A DNA stretch of 64,000 nt from a virus: IMG/VR virus record IMGVR_UViG_3300037246_001058, positions 1-64,000 of that record. The stretch is one strand, 5' to 3'. Position 1 is the stretch's first letter; each line of letters begins with the position of its first letter. The position numbers and the translations under genes are program-made. The notes beneath the pieces were generated by a model that saw nothing but the letters and a program-made list of their open reading frames with translations, did no database searches and had not been told where the DNA came from. This document shows, one piece after another, positions 3,597 through 36,589 of this stretch.

Positions 3597-4151
3597 CTAC
3601 TTCTTGCCAAAAGAAACGTCAGTATGCTTCTCTGAAAACTTCCGCATAGTGGCGTTTTGATCGCTGAGATAGCCCTTGTCAACTGCATCGACTTGGATAC
3701 GGCTCTGCTCGTCTGCAATCAATCGGATTTGGTCTCCGATGTGACTGGGACGCTTGCAAAGCATCATCCCGCCAAAGACAACATTGCCTTCGGCGTGACC
3801 GATATCAGATACGACCATGCCCAGTTCGGGGCACTCTTCGGCCGTAACAGGTTCCCATCCGTCACGCAGGGCTTGAGAGTGGTTCATGTTGTCCACTGTC
3901 CCACCTGACGAAACCCGAACGTACCTGAAGTCTTGTCCATGTACGGGATTCGGATCGGGAAGAAGCCGCGAAGGCTTCCATACCATCTCACGTTCAGTGT
4001 GTTCTCTGTCTTCCAGATCACGGGGTGTGCGCGAATTGTTGTCTTCTTTGGTTTCCACTGGAGTCTCCTTGGCCTCTCTCTTGGGGGCCGCTTTGGATTT
4101 GGTACTAGGAGCTTTGTCCTTGTACAGGTCTGCCATGTCGTCGATTGCCAT
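3597..4151 (-). CDS. hypothetical head-operon protein
   Basis: 184 aa. The N-terminal 55 residues are charged and low-complexity (Lys/Glu/Asp); the C-terminal two thirds looks globular (motifs VHGQDFRYVRVSSGG and GDQIRLIADEQSR). Its ATG overlaps the stop of the scaffold gene by one base, so translation is probably coupled. The position between scaffold and decoration protein suggests a head assembly or minor head role. No family recognised. Confidence 0.75.
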   Translation of the reverse strand: MAIDDMADLYKDKAPSTKSKAAPKREAKETPVETKEDNNSRTPRDLEDREHTEREMVWKPSRLLPDPNPVHGQDFRYVRVSSGGTVDNMNHSQALRDGWEPVTAEECPELGMVVSDIGHAEGNVVFGGMMLCKRPSHIGDQIRLIADEQSRIQVDAVDKGYLSDQNATMRKFSEKHTDVSFGKK

Positions 4152-5134
4152 CAGCTGTCACCCAGCTTCAGGGTCTCACGGGCATAGACCTCCAGTGGAA
4201 TGTTCAGGCGTTTCGCGAGAGACACCTGTGTTTCGGTCAGCTGCACTTTGCGTGGAGATCCACTGCCAGCGGACTGGCGAGAGGATGGTGCGACCACGGT
4301 CGGGGCGGGAGTGGCAGCGGGCTCCGATGTGCCCTCACTCCCTGCGTCTGCGGGAAAGACCGCAGACATTCGTCTGTCGATTTCTATATAGTATGCTGGA
4401 CTTCCTACAATTACGCCAGAACTATTTTGATTATTCTGCATTTCCTCGTGAATTGCCATAGCGTACGAGCGTTTAGGAAGGTCTGTGTCGAACCATTCGT
4501 TACGTCCCTTCCAGCTCTCGAAGTCCCTATCGACCGCAGGAGCCTGGAGCTGCTGAGCTGCCTGCTCAACCGGTCCTGGCTGGGTCTGTGTCGGCGTCTG
4601 CCCTGGCTGTACCGGGACTGACGGCGTGTAGGACTCCGCCTCGTGCTCTTCGATCTGTGCTCGATTGAGAGCCATTTGAGCGGTTCCGAGTCGAGCGGGG
4701 TCACCCTCCTCCACAGCCGCCTGGTACTCCTGCTGAGCCGCTACGACTGCGCCCTTGGTCCGTTCCCGGACTTCGCTCACGAGGACGTTTTCGCCCTCCG
4801 CCATGAGCGTACGCAGCTGACCATTCTCTGTCTGCTGTGCCTGAGCGAAGCGAATCGCCTCCTCCTGCATGCGCTCTGCCGCTTCTCGACCACGACGTTC
4901 ATCGTTGATTTTGAAGGTTAGCTTGTCAATCCGCTTGCGTACACGAGCCGAAACAGCCTGAAGCTCCTCGTCCGTGGGGTCACCGTCCTCATTGGGGGCC
5001 TCCGTTCCGGGCTCCCTCTGGTCTTCCGGCGCACGTTCATCGACTACTTCGATTTCGTACTCGCCCACCTTGAACTGATTGTCCAGTGGGGACGTCTCGT
5101 TGTCCTGTCCTTCTTCGTCGTTCAGATCGCTCAT
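4151..5134 (-). CDS. putative capsid scaffolding protein
   Basis: 327 aa. Acidic N-terminus (Asp/Glu/Pro-rich, residues 1-60), a long helical stretch rich in Glu, Gln, Arg and Ala (about 60-165, likely coiled coil), a Gln/Pro linker and a helical C-terminus with basic residues (SPRKVQLTETQ). This acidic-coiled-basic layout and the place just upstream of capsid genes fit internal scaffolds, whose basic C-terminal helix binds the capsid protein. The start overlaps the GroES-like stop (ATGA). Confidence 0.65.
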   Translation of the reverse strand: MSDLNDEEGQDNETSPLDNQFKVGEYEIEVVDERAPEDQREPGTEAPNEDGDPTDEELQAVSARVRKRIDKLTFKINDERRGREAAERMQEEAIRFAQAQQTENGQLRTLMAEGENVLVSEVRERTKGAVVAAQQEYQAAVEEGDPARLGTAQMALNRAQIEEHEAESYTPSVPVQPGQTPTQTQPGPVEQAAQQLQAPAVDRDFESWKGRNEWFDTDLPKRSYAMAIHEEMQNNQNSSGVIVGSPAYYIEIDRRMSAVFPADAGSEGTSEPAATPAPTVVAPSSRQSAGSGSPRKVQLTETQVSLAKRLNIPLEVYARETLKLGDS

Positions 5135-5526
5135 ACTCGTGTAACCGCCCGTGGATCGTCGATCACCGCAAGTACGGTGTCGTCATTGATGATGCGGAAC
5201 TCCATGCCGTGTACGCCGAATCGCGTACCAGCATACGAAGACAGGATGATCCAATCACCCTCCTTGCACCAGGCTCCATCAGGAAACTTGGCCTTGTCCG
5301 CGTATGCGTCACTTCCAAGCTTCAAGACACAGAACACAATGCTCGCATCGTTCTCTTTATCCACGCGCTCGCCCGGGATGACAATGCCACCCTTCGTCTT
5401 CTCTTCCACCTCTTTCGGTGCGACGAGGATTCTATATCCAGTCGGTACCGGGAGCTGGCTTGCTTTCACTGTGTTGCCGTACGCCTTATCGGAATACGAT
5501 GCAACACCTGCTGTTGCTGCTGACAC
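5131..5526 (-). CDS. GroES-like co-chaperonin (Cpn10 family)
   Basis: 131 aa from a GTG start with a good GGAGG site 8 nt upstream. The core from about residue 28 matches Cpn10: PTGYRILVAPKEVEEKTKGG (start of the fold and the mobile-loop region), IVIPGERV, then KEGDWIILSSYAGT and FRIINDDTVLAVID at the C-terminus, as in GroES (about 97 aa). The N-terminal extension of about 25 residues is extra. Phage co-chaperonins (T4 gp31, RB49 CocO) replace GroES on the host GroEL to fold large capsid proteins. Placement between a Lys-rich protein and scaffold, in the capsid operon, fits that role. Confidence 0.85.
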   Translation of the reverse strand: MSAATAGVASYSDKAYGNTVKASQLPVPTGYRILVAPKEVEEKTKGGIVIPGERVDKENDASIVFCVLKLGSDAYADKAKFPDGAWCKEGDWIILSSYAGTRFGVHGMEFRIINDDTVLAVIDDPRAVTRV

Positions 5527-5590: not shown

Positions 5591-5815
5591 CTACTTCTTC
5601 TTTGCTGCCTTCTTCTTTGCTGCCTTCTTCTTTGCTGCCTTCTTCTTCACTACCCTCTTGCGGTCAGGCATCTGCTTTGCCGCGTTCCGGTTGCCCGGCT
5701 CTCCATCTTGGCTCTTAGGCTCGTTGCCCAGGGCCGAGAACTTTTCCCAGAAGGTCTTCTTCTTGGGCGTGGCGGGGGCCTTTTTCTTGGACGCTGCCTT
5801 TTTCTTTGTTGCCAT
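5591..5815 (-). CDS. Lys/Ala-rich basic protein with AAKKK repeats
   Basis: 74 aa, about one third Lys. Both ends are AAxKKK runs (C-terminal KKAAKKKAAKKKAAKKK), and the middle (residues 20-45, TFWEKFSALGNE) is more ordinary. The repeats resemble histone H1-like tails and could bind DNA or the acidic scaffold. Encoded between the co-chaperonin and a small gene next to portal. No enzymatic function expected. Confidence 0.7.
   Translation of the reverse strand: MATKKKAASKKKAPATPKKKTFWEKFSALGNEPKSQDGEPGNRNAAKQMPDRKRVVKKKAAKKKAAKKKAAKKK
5595..5639 (-). repeat. three exact 15-bp tandem repeats
   Basis: Unit TTCTTCTTTGCTGCC (plus strand) three times in a row, with a partial fourth copy, encoding the KKAAK repeats at the end of the Lys-rich protein. 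Such runs expand and contract by slippage. Confidence 0.9.
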
Positions 5816-11944: not shown

Positions 11945-12021
11945 TGGAGCCCTCGGAGGGAGTCGAACCCCCGACCCGCTGCTTACAAGGCAGCCGCTCT
12001 GGCCAGCTGAGCTACAAGGGC
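11945..12021 (-). tRNA. tRNA-Thr (anticodon UGU)
   Basis: 77 nt with all four arms: acceptor GCCCTTG pairing with CGAGGGC, D arm GCTC...GAGC, anticodon stem GCTGC/GCAGC enclosing CTTGTAA (anticodon TGT), T arm with TTCGACT, discriminator T and encoded CCA. It decodes ACA. It is a single-copy tRNA at the start of the late operon; phage tRNAs usually supplement host pools or replace cleaved host tRNA. Confidence 0.95.
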
Positions 12022-18761: not shown

Positions 18762-19052
18762 ATGTGTAAGACAGAAGATCTAGCTCACCTGCTAGGCAAG
18801 ATCGAGACGAGTGAACACATCGAACAGGAGGGCGATGATGTGTACCTCCTGCTCTATGATGATGCGTGCGAGTGGACGTATTGGGATGGGGAAAAGGCCG
18901 TCAAGGGCAGGCACTGCAGCAGCTGCGATGACCTGTCCAAGGCGGTGCAGCTACAGGACATGAAGGTCAAGCTCGTTCAGATGTTCGGGACCAAGATGTA
19001 TCAGGCCAGGCTACACGTAGCCAACCACAGGTACGACCGACACGACTGGTAG
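18762..19052 (+). CDS. hypothetical protein
   Basis: 96 aa, GAGAGG site. Contains CSSCDDL near the middle and acidic first half; the stop's last base begins palindrome copy 9. No family recognised. Confidence 0.6.
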   Translation: MCKTEDLAHLLGKIETSEHIEQEGDDVYLLLYDDACEWTYWDGEKAVKGRHCSSCDDLSKAVQLQDMKVKLVQMFGTKMYQARLHVANHRYDRHDW

Positions 19053-20153: not shown

Positions 20154-20383
20154 AGAAAGACCTTACTATAGAGGACACTATCACTATCCCAAAGGAGTGG
20201 GTCCCGACCCTCATCAAGGTCATGGGATACGTGACCGACGACCTCGTGGATGACGGGAGCTTCTACAACGACGGAGAGCGCCAGCTCATCAAGGATGTGA
20301 CCGCCATATCCAGGGGCCTGGCCATGAGGATGAAGGACGCACCACTCACGGTGCTGCCTCGGACGGGAGAGAACGATGACTGA
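20150..20383 (+). CDS. hypothetical protein upstream of RtcB
   Basis: 77 aa. ATG abuts the palindrome; no normal ribosome site, so translation is probably by stop-start coupling (ATGA). Helical and acidic (VTDDLVDDGSFYNDGERQ). Overlaps the RtcB start by 8 nt, so likely co-translated with it. No family recognised. Confidence 0.6.
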   Translation: MKKDLTIEDTITIPKEWVPTLIKVMGYVTDDLVDDGSFYNDGERQLIKDVTAISRGLAMRMKDAPLTVLPRTGENDD

Positions 20384-21590
20384 TTACAGAGCGTACTACA
20401 ACGCACTCCAGAAGGTGCCAATCAAGGCGTTCACCAAAGGAGTACCGTTCGAAGGGGCAGCACTAGAGCAGGCTGTCAACGTGGCACGACTGCCATTTAT
20501 CCACAAGCACGTGGCTGTGATGCCCGACGTGCACGCTGGGTATGGGTGTACGGTAGGCTCTGTCATCCCAACAGTGGGGGCTATCATCCCCGCTTGTGTT
20601 GGTGTTGACATCGGGTGTGGCATGATGGCTATTCGTACGGGCATGACCTCGCACGACCTGCCGGAGGACCTCGCCGAGTTCAGGGCTGCCATCGAGCACA
20701 AGGTACCCGTCGGTCGCAGTGCCTACGACAACAAGCACATGCCACGGTTGGCCAGGAGTATATGGACCAACCTATTGGCTGGAGGCTATAACAACATCAT
20801 ACACAGGCACCCCGCCATCAAGCATGAGAAGGTATCGTACCAGATGGGTACGCTGGGCGGAGGCAACCACTTCATCGAGCTGTGTCTCGACGAGGAGGAC
20901 AGGGTATGGATCATGCTACACTCGGGTAGCAGGGGTGTTGGCAACAGGATAGGCACCTACTTCACACGACTGGCGCGCGAGGACATGGAGAGATTCTTCA
21001 TCCACCTGCCAGACCGTGACCTGGCCTACTTCCCGGAGGGCACGCCGAACTTCGATGACTACATCGAGGCCATGGACTGGGCCCAGGCGTACGCCCTGCA
21101 TAACCGAAGGACCATGATGGACACCACCATCATGACACTGGCGGACACGTTTGGGTTGCCGTTCGAGAAGTTGATGGCTCATGACCGGGCCATCAACTGT
21201 CATCACAACTACACCACGAGAGAGCAGCACTTCGGCAAGAACGTGTGGCTCACCCGTAAGGGGGCAGTGTGTGCAAGGCAGGGTGTGATGGGTATCATAC
21301 CTGGCTCGATGGGTGCCAAGTCATTCATCGTCGAGGGCAAGGGCAACCCGGACTCGTTCGACTCGTGCTCGCATGGTGCGGGACGGTTGATGAGTCGGAC
21401 CAAGGCGAAGGCCACGTTCACGGTGGCGGACCACGTCAAGGCAACGGAAGGGGTGGAGTGCCGCAAGGATGAGGGCGTGCTCGATGAGACGCCGGGAGCT
21501 TACAAAAATATAGATGATGTGATGGCAGCACAGGATAGCCTTGTGTCCATCAAGCACACGCTCAAAGCTGTGCTCTGTATCAAGGGTTAG
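20376..21590 (+). CDS. rtcB: RNA ligase RtcB
   Basis: 404 aa, matching the length of bacterial RtcB (about 408). All signature blocks are present: MPDVHAGYGCTVGSVIP, VGVDIGCGM (metal Cys), GTLGGGNHFIEL, LHSGSRGVGN, NCHHNYTTRE, RQGVMGIIPGSMG and SFDSCSHGAGR with the His that is guanylylated. RtcB joins 2',3'-cyclic phosphate or 3'-phosphate ends to 5'-OH ends using GTP and Mn2+. In a phage it could reseal tRNAs or other RNAs cut by host toxin or anticodon nucleases. No archease gene is seen. GAGAAC lies before the ATG. Confidence 0.95.
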   Translation: MTDYRAYYNALQKVPIKAFTKGVPFEGAALEQAVNVARLPFIHKHVAVMPDVHAGYGCTVGSVIPTVGAIIPACVGVDIGCGMMAIRTGMTSHDLPEDLAEFRAAIEHKVPVGRSAYDNKHMPRLARSIWTNLLAGGYNNIIHRHPAIKHEKVSYQMGTLGGGNHFIELCLDEEDRVWIMLHSGSRGVGNRIGTYFTRLAREDMERFFIHLPDRDLAYFPEGTPNFDDYIEAMDWAQAYALHNRRTMMDTTIMTLADTFGLPFEKLMAHDRAINCHHNYTTREQHFGKNVWLTRKGAVCARQGVMGIIPGSMGAKSFIVEGKGNPDSFDSCSHGAGRLMSRTKAKATFTVADHVKATEGVECRKDEGVLDETPGAYKNIDDVMAAQDSLVSIKHTLKAVLCIKG

Positions 21591-24875: not shown

Positions 24876-25931
24876 ATGAGTATTGATTACATGGAAGCAG
24901 CCGAGCTTTGCCGGGTGTCGCAGGAGAAGGGCGCACCGGGGGAGCACGTACACCTGATGCTCTCGGGTCACCCGGGCGTCGGTAAGAATCATCTGTGGCA
25001 GAAGTTTGCTGACCTCATCAACTACAAGTTGACGGTCATCATTCTTACCAACGAGGACAACCTTGACATCGGTGGTATGTGGGCACCCAACTTTGAGGAC
25101 GGGAAGCTCTGCCATCTCATGACCGACAGGTTCATGGGCAAGAACATACCGAAGGGGTTCAAGGGGGAGATCATCCTGTTCGATGAGATTGGCAACGCAC
25201 CACACATGCAGACCGCCATCCTCTCTATCGTAGAGGACCGTAGGCACAACGGAAAGCCCGTTGGCAAGAACGTCATCTTTGGATTCAGTACCAACCTGGC
25301 CGACGCAGGGTGTGGCGCAAGCCGCATCAACAACGCACTGCAGGCACGCATACTCAACTTCGTAGTGGAGCCGGAGTATGACAAGTGGATCGACTGGGCC
25401 CTGGATAACGAGCTGCATCCCAAGATCCTCACGTGGCTACACTACAGCAAGCATAGCTTGCATGGCTTCGACCCTAAGTCGAAGGAGTTCGGGCAGCCCA
25501 ACCCTCGGTCATGGCACAAGCTGTCTGGACTGATGCATCAGGGCCCATCGGATGAGATGTTCAAGCAGGTGGCCGTTGGTATGATCGGCAGCGTGGAAGG
25601 CATGAAGTTCATTGGCTTCACGCAGCTGGACGAGGGGCTCACGTCTGTGTTCGATGTGCTCGCCAACCCGGAGGAGTGCAACATCCCAGTCGGGGACGTA
25701 AGCTCACAGTACGCTATCGTGAGTAACATCTCGGCATGGATGATGGGTCAGCGTAGGCTGAAGATCGAGGTGACCCTCGAAGAGAAGGAGGCCTTCATCA
25801 CATTCCTCCGTCGGTTCACGGACCCGCTTGCGGTGTTCGGGTTCAGGCTGTTGGATAAGATGAACCCTGAGTTCAGCAAGTGCAAGGCGTACTCGCAGTT
25901 CACCATCGACTACCAAGGGACGGATATGTAA
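24876..25931 (+). CDS. MoxR/CobS-type AAA+ ATPase with unusual Walker A
   Basis: 351 aa. Walker A is GHPGVGKN (31-38), with Asn where Ser/Thr normally binds Mg2+. Walker B is ILFDE (100-104), a sensor-1-like FSTN follows, and RINNALQARIL may hold the arginine finger. The rest resembles MoxR/CobS chaperone ATPases that work with VWA proteins to remodel or metallate a target. The partner at 26223 carries the VWA domain. Whether Asn lowers ATP hydrolysis is open. AAGGAAG site; stop overlaps the next ATG. Confidence 0.8.
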   Translation: MSIDYMEAAELCRVSQEKGAPGEHVHLMLSGHPGVGKNHLWQKFADLINYKLTVIILTNEDNLDIGGMWAPNFEDGKLCHLMTDRFMGKNIPKGFKGEIILFDEIGNAPHMQTAILSIVEDRRHNGKPVGKNVIFGFSTNLADAGCGASRINNALQARILNFVVEPEYDKWIDWALDNELHPKILTWLHYSKHSLHGFDPKSKEFGQPNPRSWHKLSGLMHQGPSDEMFKQVAVGMIGSVEGMKFIGFTQLDEGLTSVFDVLANPEECNIPVGDVSSQYAIVSNISAWMMGQRRLKIEVTLEEKEAFITFLRRFTDPLAVFGFRLLDKMNPEFSKCKAYSQFTIDYQGTDM

Positions 25932-30382: not shown

Positions 30383-30551
30383 CATAGTGAGTAAGCTTGT
30401 GTACGAAGCACAGAACGAATGGATGGTTGATCAACACTACCTCTCAACTGGCAAGCTGATGATGGATGCCAGCGTGGAGATCGAGCGACTGCGAGAGCAG
30501 GTGTTCCAACTCAGGCTAGAGAGGGGGAGAATATGCAAGACAGATGCGTGA
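30375..30551 (+). CDS. small helical protein, GTG start
   Basis: 58 aa, GGAG before GTG overlapping the upstream stop. Helical, ends EIERLREQVFQLRLERGRIC, coiled-coil-like. Overlaps the next gene by 19 nt. Confidence 0.5.
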   Translation: MTDIVSKLVYEAQNEWMVDQHYLSTGKLMMDASVEIERLREQVFQLRLERGRICKTDA

Positions 30552-30964
30552 TGGCGATGCCGTACGAGCTGTCGTCAGTGGAGATAGGTTACTTCCACGA
30601 TGCCGTAGAGACAGACAAGCACTCGGGTGGGGTGGGCATAGTGTCCGACCTCATCATGCAGGGTGCGATGGAGCTATGGATCTTTAACGAAGACGAGACG
30701 ATCCTGTGTACCATCACTCGGGTGGTGACGTACCCGGATGGGTATAGAGAACTGCTTGTTCAGATGATGGCGGGGAGCAACGTGACCAGCACCGAGGCAC
30801 ACACTGAGTGCTCGCGGGTCATGATGCGGTACGCCTTGAAGCAGGGATGTCATCGGATGTCTGCCTACATGGAGCCCCACATCTGGGAGGCGATGCAACC
30901 ACACCTGCCGGGATACGTGGCTGAGTATGTGGTGCTGACACTGGAACCGGAGACTATACTATGA
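30533..30964 (+). CDS. hypothetical protein
   Basis: 143 aa, GAGGGGGAG site. Alternating strands and helices (GAMELWIFNEDETILCTITRV, ... ALKQGCHRMSAYMEPHIWEAM), loosely GNAT-like in order but without a clear acetyl-CoA motif. Unknown. Confidence 0.6.
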   Translation: MQDRCVMAMPYELSSVEIGYFHDAVETDKHSGGVGIVSDLIMQGAMELWIFNEDETILCTITRVVTYPDGYRELLVQMMAGSNVTSTEAHTECSRVMMRYALKQGCHRMSAYMEPHIWEAMQPHLPGYVAEYVVLTLEPETIL

Positions 30965-31197
30965 TGAGTCCCCTGAAGTACGCTCGCATGAAGTTTGCTC
31001 TCGAAGAATGTCGTCACCACCTTGACGCAGAGGTCGTGCTGATGGAGGTGGGGATATGCCAATCACTGGTCGGACTCATCGACAGGGCACTCGGCCCTAA
31101 CCAAGACGAACCTGACGACGCAGTACAGCACGAGGATCTAGCTGGCCTCCTCGATCGAATCCATAGTGTGACGAAAGGCAATCAAGATTATGAGTGA
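30961..31197 (+). CDS. hypothetical helical protein
   Basis: 78 aa, ATGATGA overlap with the upstream stop. Helical, acidic C-terminus (HEDLAGLLDRIHSV). Its last 100 nt overlap the end of a minus-strand gene. Confidence 0.55.
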   Translation: MMSPLKYARMKFALEECRHHLDAEVVLMEVGICQSLVGLIDRALGPNQDEPDDAVQHEDLAGLLDRIHSVTKGNQDYE

Positions 31198-31525
31198 CGA
31201 TCTTACCAAACTGTTCGAGCGTTACATGCGACGGAAGGCTCGCGAGCGTGCCAGTGATGGCGTTGATAAAGCACGCGGTGTCGTCGGTGTCACACCCGGA
31301 CATACTGGCAAGCGTATCCCTCAGACCAGCGTGATACTCGGCTGTTTCCATAGAGGGTACGCCAGTGCCGGGATCAACGAGTGCCCGGCCTGCGGCCAAG
31401 TCCTCAGCTAGTCGGTTGGCTGCCTGCAGCTGCGGCGGAGTGATCAGTTCGTGGAGCATCAGCTCATCGAACAGGTTGGTTGTCTCTACCCTGCTGCGGG
31501 TGGCCATCAGTTTTTCAGTCAGCAT
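31097..31525 (-). CDS. hypothetical protein, end of the leftward replication operon
   Basis: 142 aa, strong AAAGGAG site and TGATG coupling to the upstream gene. Helical first half (LQAANRLAEDLAAGRALVD); acidic middle. It converges with rightward genes and overlaps one by 100 nt. No family recognised. Confidence 0.6.
   Translation of the reverse strand: MLTEKLMATRSRVETTNLFDELMLHELITPPQLQAANRLAEDLAAGRALVDPGTGVPSMETAEYHAGLRDTLASMSGCDTDDTACFINAITGTLASLPSHVTLEQFGKIVTHNLDCLSSHYGFDRGGQLDPRAVLRRQVRLG
31190..31411 (+). CDS. possible last gene of the rightward early block
   Basis: 73 aa, ATGAGTGA overlap with the previous stop. Basic N-terminus (DLTKLFERYMRRKARER) and a final CPAC. It lies entirely antisense to the 142-aa minus gene; only one may be translated. 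Confidence 0.35.
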   Translation: MSDDLTKLFERYMRRKARERASDGVDKARGVVGVTPGHTGKRIPQTSVILGCFHRGYASAGINECPACGQVLS

Positions 31526-31815
31526 CAGCTCCGTCTCTCCTTTGTGTTGCCTTCATGTACTTCATTAAACGCCGGGGACTCACCATTGAATGGCGTCACA
31601 TGCCGTGAGAAGTTAGTCACATGCCGTGAGAAGTTAGTCCACCCCCCACTCGTCTCGTTATGCATGGTCCACATGCCGGTGTGACCATCATTGAACTCAT
31701 GATACTCGTAAGGATCCCAGCCTATGATTAGCCAAGTGCTGTACACATCTACCTCAACCCAATCGACTTCCTCAATCCAGCGACTGACGGAGCTGCTGGG
31801 GCTTTTCTTGCTCAT
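31525..31815 (-). CDS. WLxxGW-family small protein 1
   Basis: 96 aa. Contains VYSTWLIIGWDPYEYHEF, the motif shared with the next four genes. A 7-residue duplication (NFSRHVT twice) comes from a 21-bp tandem repeat. Start overlaps the next stop by ATGA. Unknown function. Confidence 0.6.
   Translation of the reverse strand: MSKKSPSSSVSRWIEEVDWVEVDVYSTWLIIGWDPYEYHEFNDGHTGMWTMHNETSGGWTNFSRHVTNFSRHVTPFNGESPAFNEVHEGNTKERRS
31596..31637 (-). repeat. 21-bp exact tandem duplication
   Basis: TCACATGCCGTGAGAAGTTAG (21 bp, plus strand) occurs twice head to tail at 31596-31616 and 31617-31637, keeping the frame of WLxxGW protein 1. Confidence 0.95.
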
Positions 31816-32072
31816 CGTCGCCACCCTCCGCCAGACCCGCACTCGATGCGGCACATCTCCTCGATGTAGATCTCGCAGGAAATGCCAAGCTTACTGGCTA
31901 TCGCCATCTGTGTCGATGTCAGGCGGTGTGAATGTTCGTGCGGCCATGCGTTGTCGAGCCAGCCGTTGTATAGGTCATCTGCATACCACCCTCCCTCTGC
32001 CCTTATGCTCTCAACCTCTAGTCTCAAGTTTATACACGCACGGCGCGCGTACTCTATATCCGTGGCGCTCAT
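31812..32072 (-). CDS. WLxxGW-family small protein 2
   Basis: 86 aa. GGWYADDLYNGWLDNAWPHE carries the motif with Ala for Gly; followed by a helix with LGISCEIYIEEM, matching the end of protein 4. Coupled by ATGA/TGATG on both sides. Confidence 0.6.
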   Translation of the reverse strand: MSATDIEYARRACINLRLEVESIRAEGGWYADDLYNGWLDNAWPHEHSHRLTSTQMAIASKLGISCEIYIEEMCRIECGSGGGWRR

Positions 32073-32320
32073 CAGGACCTGTCCCAGGCTATGACTCCAA
32101 GTTCCATCTTGAGCGGGGCGAGGCCGAAGCCAACGTAGTCCGGCTCCCATCCTGCAGTGAGCCATTCATTGTACTGGATATCTTCCTTCCAGCTGCGGGC
32201 CTCCAACACGCGGGCCCACTCCGCAGCGAACGTGATGGCCTTGCTCTGATTGCGGCGGCGAGCGGCGAAGTTGGCAAGCTCTCGCTGGTACCGATTGTAC
32301 GTTTCCGTGCCGCCACTCAC
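32072..32320 (-). CDS. WLxxGW-family small protein 3
   Basis: 82 aa. IQYNEWLTAGWEPDYVGFGL contains the motif; a basic helix precedes it (ELANFAARRRNQSKAITFAA). Unknown function. Confidence 0.6.
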   Translation of the reverse strand: MSGGTETYNRYQRELANFAARRRNQSKAITFAAEWARVLEARSWKEDIQYNEWLTAGWEPDYVGFGLAPLKMELGVIAWDRS

Positions 32321-32326
32321 GGCAGA

Positions 32327-32620
32327 CTACCAAACAACATTCTGGACCTCTTCCATGTATTGCTTCATGACCCTAGCATACTCCCCTATGTCCATACCTA
32401 TGGCATCGGCGGCAACCAGATCGGCATGCGTGATGGGGCCGTCAAGGTACAGGCCCCAACCATCATTGAGCCACGAGGCGAGCATCTCGTCATCGTCCCA
32501 GCCATGATGCATGTCGATGATATCTTTGTACCAGACGTCAACGCCAAGACGAAGACGTGCATCTCGTGCGATGTCTTCGTCGTACTCGAAGCGTCTAACC
32601 TTCACGTGCGTGTATGCCAT
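32327..32620 (-). CDS. WLxxGW-family small protein 4
   Basis: 97 aa from ATG overlapping the previous stop (GCTGATG). DDDEMLASWLNDGWGLYLDG holds the motif; the C-terminal helix (AIGMDIGEYARVMKQYMEE) parallels that of protein 2, so these look like full homologues. Confidence 0.6.
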   Translation of the reverse strand: MAYTHVKVRRFEYDEDIARDARLRLGVDVWYKDIIDMHHGWDDDEMLASWLNDGWGLYLDGPITHADLVAADAIGMDIGEYARVMKQYMEEVQNVVW

Positions 32621-32634
32621 CAGCCTATGTCCCA
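32618..32634 (-). repeat. 17-bp junction repeat, copy A
   Basis: TGGGACATAGGCTGATG (minus strand) encoding WDIG, stop and the next ATG; identical to copy B at 32773-32789. Confidence 0.85.
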
Positions 32635-32775
32635 ATGGTAGCTCTTCACATACTCTACACACCGAGGACATTCGCAACCCTCTACCCACTCGTCCGGCGC
32701 CCACCCTTCGCGGAGCCAGCTGGCGAGTATTTCGTTGTCACCCCACATGGCAATGAACTTCGCTTCGTACCACAT
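32620..32775 (-). CDS. WLxxGW-family small protein 5 with CxC-x2-C
   Basis: 51 aa. NEILASWLREGWAPDEWVEG is followed by CECPRC, a possible half zinc site. Its last codons and stop (WDIG, TGGGACATAGGCTGATG) duplicate the end of the primase-helicase gene just upstream. Confidence 0.55.
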   Translation of the reverse strand: MWYEAKFIAMWGDNEILASWLREGWAPDEWVEGCECPRCVEYVKSYHWDIG

Positions 32776-32789
32776 CAGCCTATGTCCCA
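32773..32789 (-). repeat. 17-bp junction repeat, copy B
   Basis: Same 17 bases at the end of the primase-helicase gene and start of the 51-aa gene. Confidence 0.85.
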
Positions 32790-34520
32790 GTCGTCATCGT
32801 TCGTGCCCCACTCACGGATGGTATCGAAGCTACCGTCCACCGGATTGAATGCAATGTCACAGTTACCTACCTGTCCGAGCCAGGAAAAACGCGCCTTCCA
32901 CGAGGTGAGCTTACTGATGCCGGGCTTGTCCCTGTCTCTGCTGAGGGTGATGCCGGAGTCACAGATGTTGAAGAAGGCTGCGGATCCACTGACGTCGTAC
33001 CCGGTGGGGATGGGAGTCTTCCCGTCCTGTCCTCGGTACATCTTGGTTGGATGCGCGACCAACCATACAGCAACATCATGTGCCACCGCAAACCCCTTGA
33101 GCTTGACCAGAAGCTGGTTGATTCCGTGCTGTTGGTTGTCTCCGTCAATCATTTTCTCCATCGTGAGGAAGTTGAAAGGATCCACCATGAGTATACGAAC
33201 ACCCTTGCGGAGCACTGCTGCCTCGGCCCGCTCAATCACGGACTCGATGGTCGTCTGTCCCTCATCCAAGAAGACATACTTGTCATTCACCCAGTCGATG
33301 GCCTCTTCCAGCTCACCCTGGGACATCTTGTTCTTGCCATGGAATGACTTGCCTGCGCGGAGGGCGGCGAGTTGCAACAGATGAACCTGCGAACTCGTCT
33401 CGGCAGCGAAGACGGCGGTCGCCCAGTCTTCTTGCTGCGCAAGGTAGAAGGACAACCACGTGAGGAACGTGGACTTACCGCTGCCAGGCACCCCTGTACA
33501 CAACGTCAGCGTACCTGGGCTGGGCCGGTAGATGCTGGAGATATACCCGACCTTGATATCTATGCCACGGGTCATGCCACTGTGGTAGATGGCGAGGGCC
33601 TCCTCCTTGTACTCGCTGGCATCACGAAGGCCACCGATGGGCCAGGGTGTGGCCTCGGCGAGCAGCTGCTTCAATGCATCCTCACCATACTTCATGAGGA
33701 CATCATTGGCATCCTTACAATCACTCGGATAGGACATGCGCCAGCACTTGGCTCTGCCGATACGGCGTGCGATCTCCTCGGTGAGGATCTCACCAGGCCC
33801 ATCGTCCTGATCACCAGCGATGATGACACGTGTAGCCTTCTCTATCTTATCCTTGGCATCCCAGAGGTAGGCGTACTTCTTACTGCTGCTGTCATCATCC
33901 TTACTCTTGGTGCTGGGCGCCCCATTGGGCACAGACGTAGCGAACACACCAACTTGAGCGAAGGACAGGGCATCCATCTCACCCTCTGTAATGATGAGGT
34001 CACCACCGTCGAAGTCATTGATGCGCCACAGGCTGCGGGCTGCCCCGGTCTGCGTGAAATTCTTCTTGCCGTCTCTCCACTTCACGGCGGTAGATCCGTC
34101 GAGGTTGTGGTACGGGAACCCGATGCACGGCACCTTGGCGTCACGCGCGCGGACCCAGATCGTTGCATTGATCAACCCGCACTCAACAGTAGTGGACATG
34201 CTGATGCCACGACCTGCCAGGTAGGCAAGCTGCGGCTCACTCAGCTTATCGAACTGTTCTATAGAAATGACCACCGGTTTCGAAACGATGGGGGATACCT
34301 TGGTCTTGGGTTGGGCTGCTGTCTCGGTCAACTTCACGCTTCCTTTGGCCTCGCAGTGATGACAGATGTAGACGGCGTAGTCACCGTCGATCTTCACGGA
34401 AAGGGTTCGTTCGTTAGATTTCTTTCGGTCTGGCCCACAGATGGGGCACGTTGTCCTGCTCTCGTGACGGTCGGCGGCACCGGACTCAATGAGGTGGTCA
34501 ACCATATCACTAGCCGTCAT
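32775..34520 (-). CDS. primase-helicase (T7 gp4/Twinkle type)
   Basis: 581 aa from ATG at 34520. N-terminal zinc site CPICG ... CHHC (about residues 25-55), TOPRIM primase with IITEGEMDALSF and IIAGDQDDGPG, then a RecA-like helicase with Walker A GVPGSGKST, Walker B ILMVDPFNF and VWLVAHPTK. The acidic tail NDDDWDIG resembles the T7 gp4 tail that recruits polymerase. It unwinds the fork and primes lagging-strand synthesis. No polymerase gene lies in the window, so its partner must be host or elsewhere. Confidence 0.93.
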   Translation of the reverse strand: MTASDMVDHLIESGAADRHESRTTCPICGPDRKKSNERTLSVKIDGDYAVYICHHCEAKGSVKLTETAAQPKTKVSPIVSKPVVISIEQFDKLSEPQLAYLAGRGISMSTTVECGLINATIWVRARDAKVPCIGFPYHNLDGSTAVKWRDGKKNFTQTGAARSLWRINDFDGGDLIITEGEMDALSFAQVGVFATSVPNGAPSTKSKDDDSSSKKYAYLWDAKDKIEKATRVIIAGDQDDGPGEILTEEIARRIGRAKCWRMSYPSDCKDANDVLMKYGEDALKQLLAEATPWPIGGLRDASEYKEEALAIYHSGMTRGIDIKVGYISSIYRPSPGTLTLCTGVPGSGKSTFLTWLSFYLAQQEDWATAVFAAETSSQVHLLQLAALRAGKSFHGKNKMSQGELEEAIDWVNDKYVFLDEGQTTIESVIERAEAAVLRKGVRILMVDPFNFLTMEKMIDGDNQQHGINQLLVKLKGFAVAHDVAVWLVAHPTKMYRGQDGKTPIPTGYDVSGSAAFFNICDSGITLSRDRDKPGISKLTSWKARFSWLGQVGNCDIAFNPVDGSFDTIREWGTNDDDWDIG

Positions 34521-34956
34521 TGGCAGCACGCCTCCGGCTGTGAAGGTCACGGGATGCCTTCGAAAGCTTCCCGATTGGAGCACCAGAGTAACTCATACGC
34601 CCCTCGTCAGCAACGCTGGGGCGTGCGTCCCTGCCTACCAGCACCGGGCCATGGCCATCGTCATGCTTATCACGGGCAGTCACACGGACAATACCTCTCA
34701 TGATCTCTAGACACTCAAGGGTCACTGGCTTGCGGACGTCGCTGTCGATGCGGATCAATCCGTGCAACAGCTCCTTCACCCAGGCCTCGTCCCAATTCGC
34801 CAGCTGGCACACCGTGGTGAAGCGTACGCCACTGTTCATCCACTTGCGGACATCCCAGGCAGCACGGGCCGTGCCGAATCCAAGGTCCCTAACTGCGTCG
34901 GACACAACACATCTGTACATAGTCTGTACTTCATCAAGCTCGATCTCAGCGCTCAT
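34510..34956 (-). CDS. hypothetical protein upstream of primase-helicase
   Basis: 148 aa from ATG at 34956; overlaps the primase start by 11 nt. Helical, with ARAAWDVRKWMNSGVRFTT and WDEAWVKELLHGLIRI in the middle and a basic C-terminus (ASRDLHSRRRAANDG), a pattern that could be a helix-turn-helix. Overlaps the resolvase end too. No family recognised. Confidence 0.6.
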   Translation of the reverse strand: MSAEIELDEVQTMYRCVVSDAVRDLGFGTARAAWDVRKWMNSGVRFTTVCQLANWDEAWVKELLHGLIRIDSDVRKPVTLECLEIMRGIVRVTARDKHDDGHGPVLVGRDARPSVADEGRMSYSGAPIGKLSKASRDLHSRRRAANDG

Positions 34957-35365
34957 CAAACAGGTCCTTGTTATAGTGTGTGGTGGAGATGTTCTCAAGA
35001 CCGCTGATTGGCAGGACCTTGACCCGTATCCTAGCACGGGGGTCCTTGCGCGCCAGGTTCCACACGCTCATGGATGCTTTCACTTGCCTGTCGTTGGCGT
35101 AAACTCTCTTCTGCAGGAGGTCTTGGATGAAGTCGATGCAGGCTAGGTCGGGTCGGCGGCTGCCGTACCACACGTCCACCCTGAGGGATAGGTCACCCTC
35201 CAATAGCTCATCGAGGATGGGGCACTGCTCATTGAATACTGTCTCGTATATGAGGGCCTTCTTGCTCTTGATCAATGCTGTTCTGTTGCCCATCTTGACG
35301 ATGCGCCGTCGGTTCTTTGCTGACTGGGGTTCACCGAACACCCAGATATCTACGTCTGATGCCAC
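34946..35365 (-). CDS. RusA-like Holliday junction resolvase, altered metal site
   Basis: 139 aa from GTG with AAGGAG 6 nt upstream. RusA features: VFGEPQSAKNRRR at the N-terminus, VDVWYGSRRPDLACIDF, LLQKRVYANDRQV. In RusA the site reads DxDN with later DD; here it reads DLAC then ND, so the second Asp and Asn are replaced. RusA dimers cut Holliday junctions; this version may be weakened or use the Asp two residues later. First gene of the leftward replication operon. Confidence 0.75.
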   Translation of the reverse strand: MASDVDIWVFGEPQSAKNRRRIVKMGNRTALIKSKKALIYETVFNEQCPILDELLEGDLSLRVDVWYGSRRPDLACIDFIQDLLQKRVYANDRQVKASMSVWNLARKDPRARIRVKVLPISGLENISTTHYNKDLFDER

Positions 35366-35388
35366 TGCTGCTCCTTCGATTGAACTAT

Positions 35389-35416
35389 AGGGTAGCACGA
35401 GTGACGATCCAGTCAA
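35389..35416 (-). promoter_or_regulatory. leftward promoter of the replication operon
   Basis: Minus-strand TTGACT, 16 bp, TACCCT with TGC just before the -10 (extended form), 24 nt upstream of the resolvase GTG. The same spacing and extended -10 as the opposing promoter at 35634. Confidence 0.6.
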
Positions 35417-35633
35417 TACCCTCGGGGCATCTTCTTCACAGGAGTTGCCGCCGTGAAAAGGGTCCAACAAAACCGCATGTATTTGCATGCTCTAAGCTGT
35501 CTCAGTTCGAGGAGGAAAGATTGTTGATTGACAGAATCCATATCGTGACGCACTCAGTAAGAAGTGAGCGAGCCCATACGGATATGTCCTGCGAGCGAAC
35601 GCCACCATGCAAGAGGAAAGATAGAGAGAATGG
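35417..35633. other. divergent control region
   Basis: About 220 bp between leftward and rightward promoters. Contains an inverted repeat GCATG-TATTTG-CATGC near 35475 and GAGGAGG at 35509-35515. No convincing gene except a possible 38-codon frame. Confidence 0.45.
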
Positions 35634-35637
35634 TTGA
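35521..35637 (+). CDS. possible 38-aa mini-protein
   Basis: TTG start 5 nt after GAGGAGGAAAGA, an unusually strong ribosome site. Basic sequence ending PPCKRKDRENG; the stop overlaps the -35 of the promoter at 35634. Needs its own upstream promoter, not seen. Confidence 0.3.
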   Translation: MLIDRIHIVTHSVRSERAHTDMSCERTPPCKRKDRENG

Positions 35638-35661
35638 CACCTTGCCCGTTCATGGTATCCT
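35634..35661 (+). promoter_or_regulatory. rightward promoter of the recombination operon
   Basis: TTGACA, 16 bp, TATCCT, with TGG before the -10 (extended -10). 35 nt upstream of the exonuclease ATG. Confidence 0.75.
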
Positions 35662-35695
35662 GCAAGGCGTAAGTTCGTATGACGAGGAGAGTTGC

Positions 35696-36589
35696 ATGCG
35701 TTTGACCAATCATCATGGGATACCGGACGTCTTCCTGAACTACGCTGAGCGTGAGAAGTACGATGCTGGTGTGTGTGACTTCACGCCCTCTAGCCTGTGT
35801 GAGCCAGCGATGATCACACATCTGAGCAAGGTGTACAAGGATAAGCTCACCGAAGATGCGGCCGATGGCATCATGGCCCTGCTTGGCACGGCAATGCACT
35901 CCATCCTAGAGAAGGGTGCCAATGAGACTGACATCATTGAGTACAGGATGTACGCTGAGTTTGAAGGACACACCATCTCCGGGTGCGTGGACCGCATGTT
36001 CATGCCAGTGGGGTTCGGGCCCTGGATGATTCAGGACTACAAGAGCACGAGTGCCAGCACCGTGATGCACAACCCCGAAGGCAAGCCCGAGTGGGTGGCC
36101 CAACAGTCTGTCTACGCATGGCTGGCAGACAAGAATGAGATGGAGGTCGAGGGTGCCGAGGTGGTACTCATGATACGAGACTGGAACAAGAGTCAGTCGA
36201 AGTATCAGAGGAGCAAGGGGTATCCACCGGCAGCCATTGCGGTCATCCCGCTTGAGCTGTGGAGTCATGAGGAAACCGAAGCTTACATGCGCTTGCGGAT
36301 CGCGGCGCTCACTGCTAAGGTACCGGAACCATGCACGCGGGAAGAGCGGTGGCAGGGCGATCCGAAGTACGCAGTGTTGAAGTACGTGAGGGGCGGGAGC
36401 CTCTCGAAGCGTGCATCAAGGGTGCTCGACTCCTCGTACGATGCTGAGGAGTACATGTTGGATAACGGCATACACGGAGAGGTCGAGGTTCGACCGGGCA
36501 AAGCCAATCGCTGCGGCGACTGGTGCCCAGTGTCCGGGTGGTGCGAGCAGTACCAAAGTGAAATTAAAGAGGAAGACGATATACTATGA
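35696..36589 (+). CDS. Cas4/RecB-type PD-(D/E)XK exonuclease
   Basis: 297 aa from ATG with GAGGAG 6 nt upstream. Nuclease core: LGTAMHSILEKGA (motif I His), GCVDRMFM (Asp), IQDYKST (D-x-K), QQSVYAWLAD (QxxxY). Cys residues at both ends (C20-type early Cys and CGDWCPVSGWC near the C-terminus) suggest a Cas4-like iron-sulfur cluster. It probably resects DNA ends for the annealing protein encoded next. Stop overlaps the next ATG. Confidence 0.8.
   Translation: MRLTNHHGIPDVFLNYAEREKYDAGVCDFTPSSLCEPAMITHLSKVYKDKLTEDAADGIMALLGTAMHSILEKGANETDIIEYRMYAEFEGHTISGCVDRMFMPVGFGPWMIQDYKSTSASTVMHNPEGKPEWVAQQSVYAWLADKNEMEVEGAEVVLMIRDWNKSQSKYQRSKGYPPAAIAVIPLELWSHEETEAYMRLRIAALTAKVPEPCTREERWQGDPKYAVLKYVRGGSLSKRASRVLDSSYDAEEYMLDNGIHGEVEVRPGKANRCGDWCPVSGWCEQYQSEIKEEDDIL

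Follow-up and report, generated by a model that had tools for sequence, protein, structure and literature searches.

For phage genomes, a conserved gene-boundary model of recombination has been discussed (PMC3233612), to which the locus described here corresponds in carrying, at successive gene junctions and in stop/start register, an exact short repeat, and from which it differs in having two exact copies only, both seen in a single genome. In T7, acidic gp4 tails bind the polymerase (PMC12593628); the primase-helicase adjacent to the present array likewise has an acidic C-terminus containing an aromatic residue, NDDDWDIG, and unlike a tail of the T7 gp4 type it has no terminal Phe. The putative scaffold proteins of phrog_28737, a family to which PHROGs gives no function, from phages of the HTVC023P and Pag-Yong1 types are about 300 aa long, contain a long low-complexity part, are encoded between GroES-like and capsid genes and carry a C-terminal helix-turn-helix tail, LTxxQxxIAxxLGIxxExY, which is common to one protein of the array (g4) and, weakly, to a second (g2); in contrast to the scaffolds, g2 and g4 have 97 and 86 aa, contain a Trp core and belong to a replication operon. 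Phage genes for host takeover or anti-defence have a general profile: they are tandem duplicates that have diverged strongly, and their products are small, mostly acidic and orphan.

The analysed stretch of DNA (the window) comprises 64,000 of the 66,019 bases of IMG/VR virus record IMGVR_UViG_3300037246_001058, from an uncultured bacterial virus. The terminase is 51-53% identical to those of Pelagibacter phage HTVC027P, phage 023Pt_psg01 and Dishui Lake phage DSL-LC04, and 43% identical to that of Planktothrix phage Pag-Yong1. For the primase-helicase, the nearest isolates are Pag-Yong1 and its near-identical siblings (34%), and identity to IMG/VR contigs is at most 42% among the matches listed. 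The DNA polymerase A of HTVC027P and DSL-LC04 gave no tblastn match in the window, despite the related head genes. The replication module of the window resembles that of Pag-Yong1; the window also shares with Pag-Yong1 a gene pair in which an ATPase gene (24876-25931) precedes one that distantly matches the VWA-like protein of that phage (26094-27710).

Operon position and coding signal of the five genes

The array is part of a minus-strand gene run leading from a RusA-like resolvase candidate through an unknown gene to the primase-helicase, g1-g5 and g6:

34946-35488, minus strand: RusA-like resolvase candidate, weak PHROG match (E 0.007)
32775..34583, minus strand: primase-helicase, upstream of the array and overlapping g1 (phrog_239, E 2e-77)
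32620..32775, minus strand: g1, Trp-core protein of 51 aa, pI 4.4, coding score +9 bits, other frames negative
32327..32620, minus strand: g2, Trp-core protein of 97 aa, pI 4.5, coding score +32 bits
32072..32320, minus strand: g3, Trp-core protein of 82 aa, GTG start, coding score +28 bits
31812..32072, minus strand: g4, Trp-core protein of 86 aa with a scaffold-like tail, coding score +7 bits
31525..31815, minus strand: g5, Trp-core protein of 96 aa with an internal in-frame 21-bp duplication, coding score +11 bits
31097..31525, minus strand: g6, 142 aa, next operon gene after g5, without the Trp-core motif

Five small consecutive genes downstream of the primase-helicase had been announced in the preliminary description, and they were located at exactly 31525-32775 on the minus strand, encoding proteins of 51-97 aa with net charges of -6, -11, 0, -4 and -6. 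The start codon overlaps the preceding stop at the primase/g1, g1/g2, g3/g4, g4/g5 and g5/g6 junctions, and the GTG start of g3 lies 7 bases past the g2 stop. Thirteen clear genes served to train a codon model, under which all five frames were positive and each alternative frame of the same stretch scored lower. Because of the codon-model scores and the arrangement of starts and stops, g1-g5 are very probably real genes.

Other readings of the same stretch were rejected. An antisense ORF of 305 codons (31724-32641, plus strand) has a codon score of -48 bits, and in this it resembles the antisense ORFs that lie opposite the primase. It is also unlikely that g1-g5 are the split remnants of one long repeat protein, as they have their own starts, changing frames (within the array only g2 and g3 share a reading frame) and clean start/stop overlaps. 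A search of 30500-36000 against Rfam gave no match. At the operon end, a 73-aa frame (31190-31411, plus strand) is convergent with g6, overlaps it and has a zinc-ribbon-like C..H...C..C stretch at its end; the coding scores are compatible with either the candidate g6 or this frame as the real gene.

The Trp core and relatedness of the five proteins

A WLxx[G/A]W core is present in all five proteins, as the preliminary description had it, and outside the array the six frames of the 64 kb contain WL..[GA]W only once, at 19006 within a frame of 42 codons. A further Trp stands exactly nine residues upstream of the core in each protein, which gives fifteen columns, W-x8-W-L-x-x-[G/A]-W; in the five proteins this unit reads WGDNEILASWLREGW, WDDDEMLASWLNDGW, WKEDIQYNEWLTAGW, WYADDLYNGWLDNAW and WVEVDVYSTWLIIGW. 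The units are encoded at the following positions:

32701..32745, minus strand: g1 core, W-x8-WLxxGW
32456..32500, minus strand: g2 core
32147..32191, minus strand: g3 core
31944..31988, minus strand: g4 core, with Ala replacing Gly
31717..31761, minus strand: g5 core

On shuffling of each protein, the core alone had a product of chances of ~3e-11, which fell to ~2e-18 once the extra Trp was counted; given the core, the chance of five Trp residues at one common offset was ~5e-6 (40 offsets allowed). A flank test, in which pairs were compared in register with the six core residues removed, detected likeness in the flanks for g1-g2 (0/20,000 draws), g2-g4 (1.5e-4), g3-g4 (3.5e-4) and g4-g5 (9.5e-4), and was weak for g1-g3 (0.06) and g1-g4 (0.03). 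Pair shuffles gave p values of 5e-6 for g1-g2, 4e-5 for g2-g4 and 1e-4 for g3-g5, and g6 was unrelated to each of g1-g5 in the shuffle test. Leave-one-out profiles placed g1, g2, g3 and g5 above every unrelated ORF in a set of ~24,500 ORFs that were not chosen by motif; in a larger set including motif-fetched loci, some such loci outscored left-out members, which is a selection effect. The core-only leave-one-out profile failed to recover g4 (2.0 bits). This protein is placed in the family because of its similarity to g2 over 72 positions (25% identity, p ~4e-5), an alignment that spans the N-terminal helix, the core and the tail and on which its membership would rest.

The extra Trp, the flank tests and the leave-one-out profiles extend the likeness past the six core residues, the limit set beforehand as the point of refutation, and the two proteins said to share a following helix proved to be g2 and g4. 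Repeated duplication and divergence of one gene, as originally proposed, agrees with the core and flank statistics, the g2-g4 similarity and the leave-one-out profiles, and the tandem duplication and divergence of g1-g5 is well supported. AlphaFold predicts g2 and g4 to be helical, at low confidence (pLDDT 57 and 54), and in both models the core is covered by a helix and the tail forms a helix-turn-helix; a Foldseek search with the low-confidence g2 model returned no match.

That the core belongs to no named family was likewise upheld, all matches to Pfam, PHROGs, NCBIfam and PADLOC profiles being below the curated or usual threshold. A sequence search of the PDB with the family gave no match, tblastn of all five proteins against 50,697 phage records gave chance matches only, and a query of g1 and g2 together found no relative. 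The motif, searched as a regular expression around the primase in at least 80 relatives' loci (at most 42% identity among the matches listed), was found in none of them. A family profile gave no match in 29 whole records of primase/terminase relatives and, as a positive control, recovered all five proteins in their own genome; an identical terminase occurs in one IMG/VR fragment of 17.6 kb, in which the family profile found no match. A scan of IMG/VR with the pattern W-x8-WLxxGWxP returned unrelated proteins and noise among the matches listed, a second IMG/VR pattern scan gave 10 matches and no convincing relative, and a pattern scan of GTDB found no small tandem genes; such degenerate-pattern scans miss relatives with changes in the chosen residues. 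No description of this Trp-core family was found in the literature. The family is, as far as could be searched, an orphan, in the sense of not being found at this sensitivity.

The tails of g4 and g2 and the putative scaffold protein

An all-against-all comparison linked g4 to the gene at 4151-5134, whose product is a putative scaffold protein, judging from gene order and from its coiled, low-complexity sequence. The features concerned are:

4151-5134, minus strand: putative head-scaffold protein (phrog_28737), between the GroES-like gene (5131-5526) and the capsid gene (2009-2929)
4169..4240, minus strand: C-terminal tail of the putative scaffold protein, resembled by the g4 tail
31854..31922, minus strand: g4 tail, LTSTQMAIASKLGISCEIYIEEM, found by the scaffold-tail profile of four relatives (E 6e-4)
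32366..32434, minus strand: g2 tail, ITHADLVAADAIGMDIGEYARVM, aligning with the g4 tail without gaps

The C-terminus of the putative scaffold, VQLTETQVSLAKRLNIPLEVYARETL, matches the C-termini of homologues in four phages. The scaffold-tail profile was built from the tails of these four relatives and contained no sequence from the phage itself; its matches in the window were confined to the scaffold candidate (7e-6) and g4 (6e-4), after which the E value rose to 2.3. The best PHROG match of g4 falls at the same place in phrog_28737 and is weak (E 0.04-0.1). The profile did not reach g2, which is linked via g4. Neither g2 nor g4 has a full-length match to the ~300-residue phrog_28737 or a head-gene position, the true member being the gene at 4151-5134. 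Since helix-turn-helix tails are short, the likeness between g4 and the scaffold may possibly be convergent.

We assign little probability to the proposal that g4 and g2 would be scaffold-tail mimics, made together with the replication machinery and either coupling replication to head assembly or regulating it; the Trp core would in that case be a reusable carrier domain that underwent five-fold duplication, and the tail would be the part by which the scaffold meets its head partner. If the likeness is functional, the replication operon would be linked to capsid assembly; if it is not, the array would be one more among many orphan phage arrays. In the same region, between the GroES-like and portal genes, a perfect 15-bp tandem repeat of 3.6 copies (CTTCTTCTTTGCTGC, 5594-5647) was observed, which on the minus strand consists of Ala/Lys-rich codons.

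Gene junctions, C-terminal ends and competing explanations

An exact 17-nt repeat, TGGGACATAGGCTGATG, is present at the primase/g1 and g1/g2 junctions, the two copies lying 155 bases apart and each including the next start codon. Repeats were recorded at the following positions:

32773..32789, minus strand: junction repeat TGGGACATAGGCTGATG at the primase stop and g1 start
32618..32634, minus strand: junction repeat TGGGACATAGGCTGATG at the g1 stop and g2 start
31595..31636, minus strand: two perfect 21-bp copies within g5, in frame (NFSRHVT twice)

With up to three mismatches allowed, 0.16 matches to the junction repeat were expected and four were found, two of them exact; the g3/g4 junction has a weaker match (13/17). 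The bodies of g1 and g2 differ after the two repeat ATGs. The exact 17-nt junction repeats thus enclose g1 as a cassette, and by recombining with each other these short direct repeats would delete it scar-free. The repeat could stem from recombination or could be kept for translational coupling. The array offers a clean example of how a small family of phage genes arises in place, with what may be marks of recombination still visible at gene boundaries.

The best explanation, which we adopt tentatively, is a lineage-restricted array of paralogues that arose by tandem duplication, preserved the Trp core and encodes protein-binding accessory factors. At the 3' end of the leftward replication operon, a single small gene would have undergone repeated tandem duplication, and strong divergence outside the preserved core would have followed. 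The core, W-x8-W-L-x-x-[G/A]-W, most likely forms a short hairpin of two helices, the second of them closed by a glycine cap, and its Trp residues would be packed between these helices; it would be the shared base to which N- and C-terminal parts of different kinds were added; it is an orphan domain small enough for quick structure solution. We infer protein binding because the proteins are small, soluble and mostly acidic and their translation is coupled with that of the primase-helicase, and each of g1-g5 may act as an adaptor or inhibitor with a partner of its own. The tail of g4, and via it that of g2, suggests a head-assembly partner. Inhibitors or decoys were named at the outset as a frequent role of tandem small paralogues in phages; coupling at the operon end and the scaffold-like tail of g4 fit partners from the phage itself no less well.

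A possible, if doubtful, alternative is that the genes encode host-takeover or anti-defence effectors whose copies diversified in an arms race with host proteins. Being small, mostly acidic, orphan, tandem and strongly diverged, g1-g5 fit the general profile of such genes; they lie, however, inside the replication operon and are coupled to the primase-helicase, and do not form a separate early block.

That the five proteins are accessory replisome subunits docking on the primase-helicase or its partners is consistent with the operon position and the overlap with the primase, and also with the C-terminal ends. The primase-helicase (NDDDWDIG) and g1 (VKSYHWDIG) have the end WDIG in common, which hints at a replisome role for g1, and a Trp within four residues of the end is also present in g2, g3 and g4. 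Many related primase-helicases have an acidic C-terminal stretch whose last residue is Phe (DDDxxPF and the like), much like the SSB tip, where this phage has DDDWDIG instead, and the acidic gp4 tail of T7 offers a precedent in binding the polymerase (PMC12593628). Against this, the WDIG common to the primase and g1 is encoded by the DNA junction repeat and in g1 may be no more than a side product of it. In a test for an acidic docking tail of the T7 gp4 type g1 failed, as it shares only the last four residues with the primase and is not acidic before them, and the relatives of the primase (at most 42% identity among the matches listed) have no such genes nearby. We consider a replisome role for the array unlikely.

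Largely non-adaptive duplicates, generated by recombination at short repeats and now drifting, would account for the junction repeats, the fresh 21-bp duplication in g5 and the low sequence conservation; this explanation is improbable in view of five intact frames with coding signal and clean overlaps, and of a Trp core retained while the remainder changed. Chance or convergence, by which unrelated small proteins would each have a glycine-capped helix followed by Trp, is very improbable, for although many unrelated IMG/VR frames match W-x8-WLxxGWxP, so that the motif alone is unspecific, the five genes are adjacent, no other real gene in the window has the motif, and the shuffles, flank tests and leave-one-out profiles argue for relatedness.

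IMG/VR locus L186 was considered as a relative and rejected, its array belonging to a different family with an incidental core match. At L186:3504-5369 it has nine consecutive overlapping small genes, apparently paralogous, with starts MI[IV]LPG or MFLPG. Like g1-g5 these are overlapping, consecutive small phage paralogues, some with a W....GW-like end; unlike g1-g5 they share a conserved LPG at the N-terminus, and their pattern is predominantly strand-like. Elsewhere in the window, an RtcB-type tRNA splicing ligase gene (20376-21590; phrog_1075, E 2e-144) and a single tRNA gene, for Thr (11945-12021), were observed.
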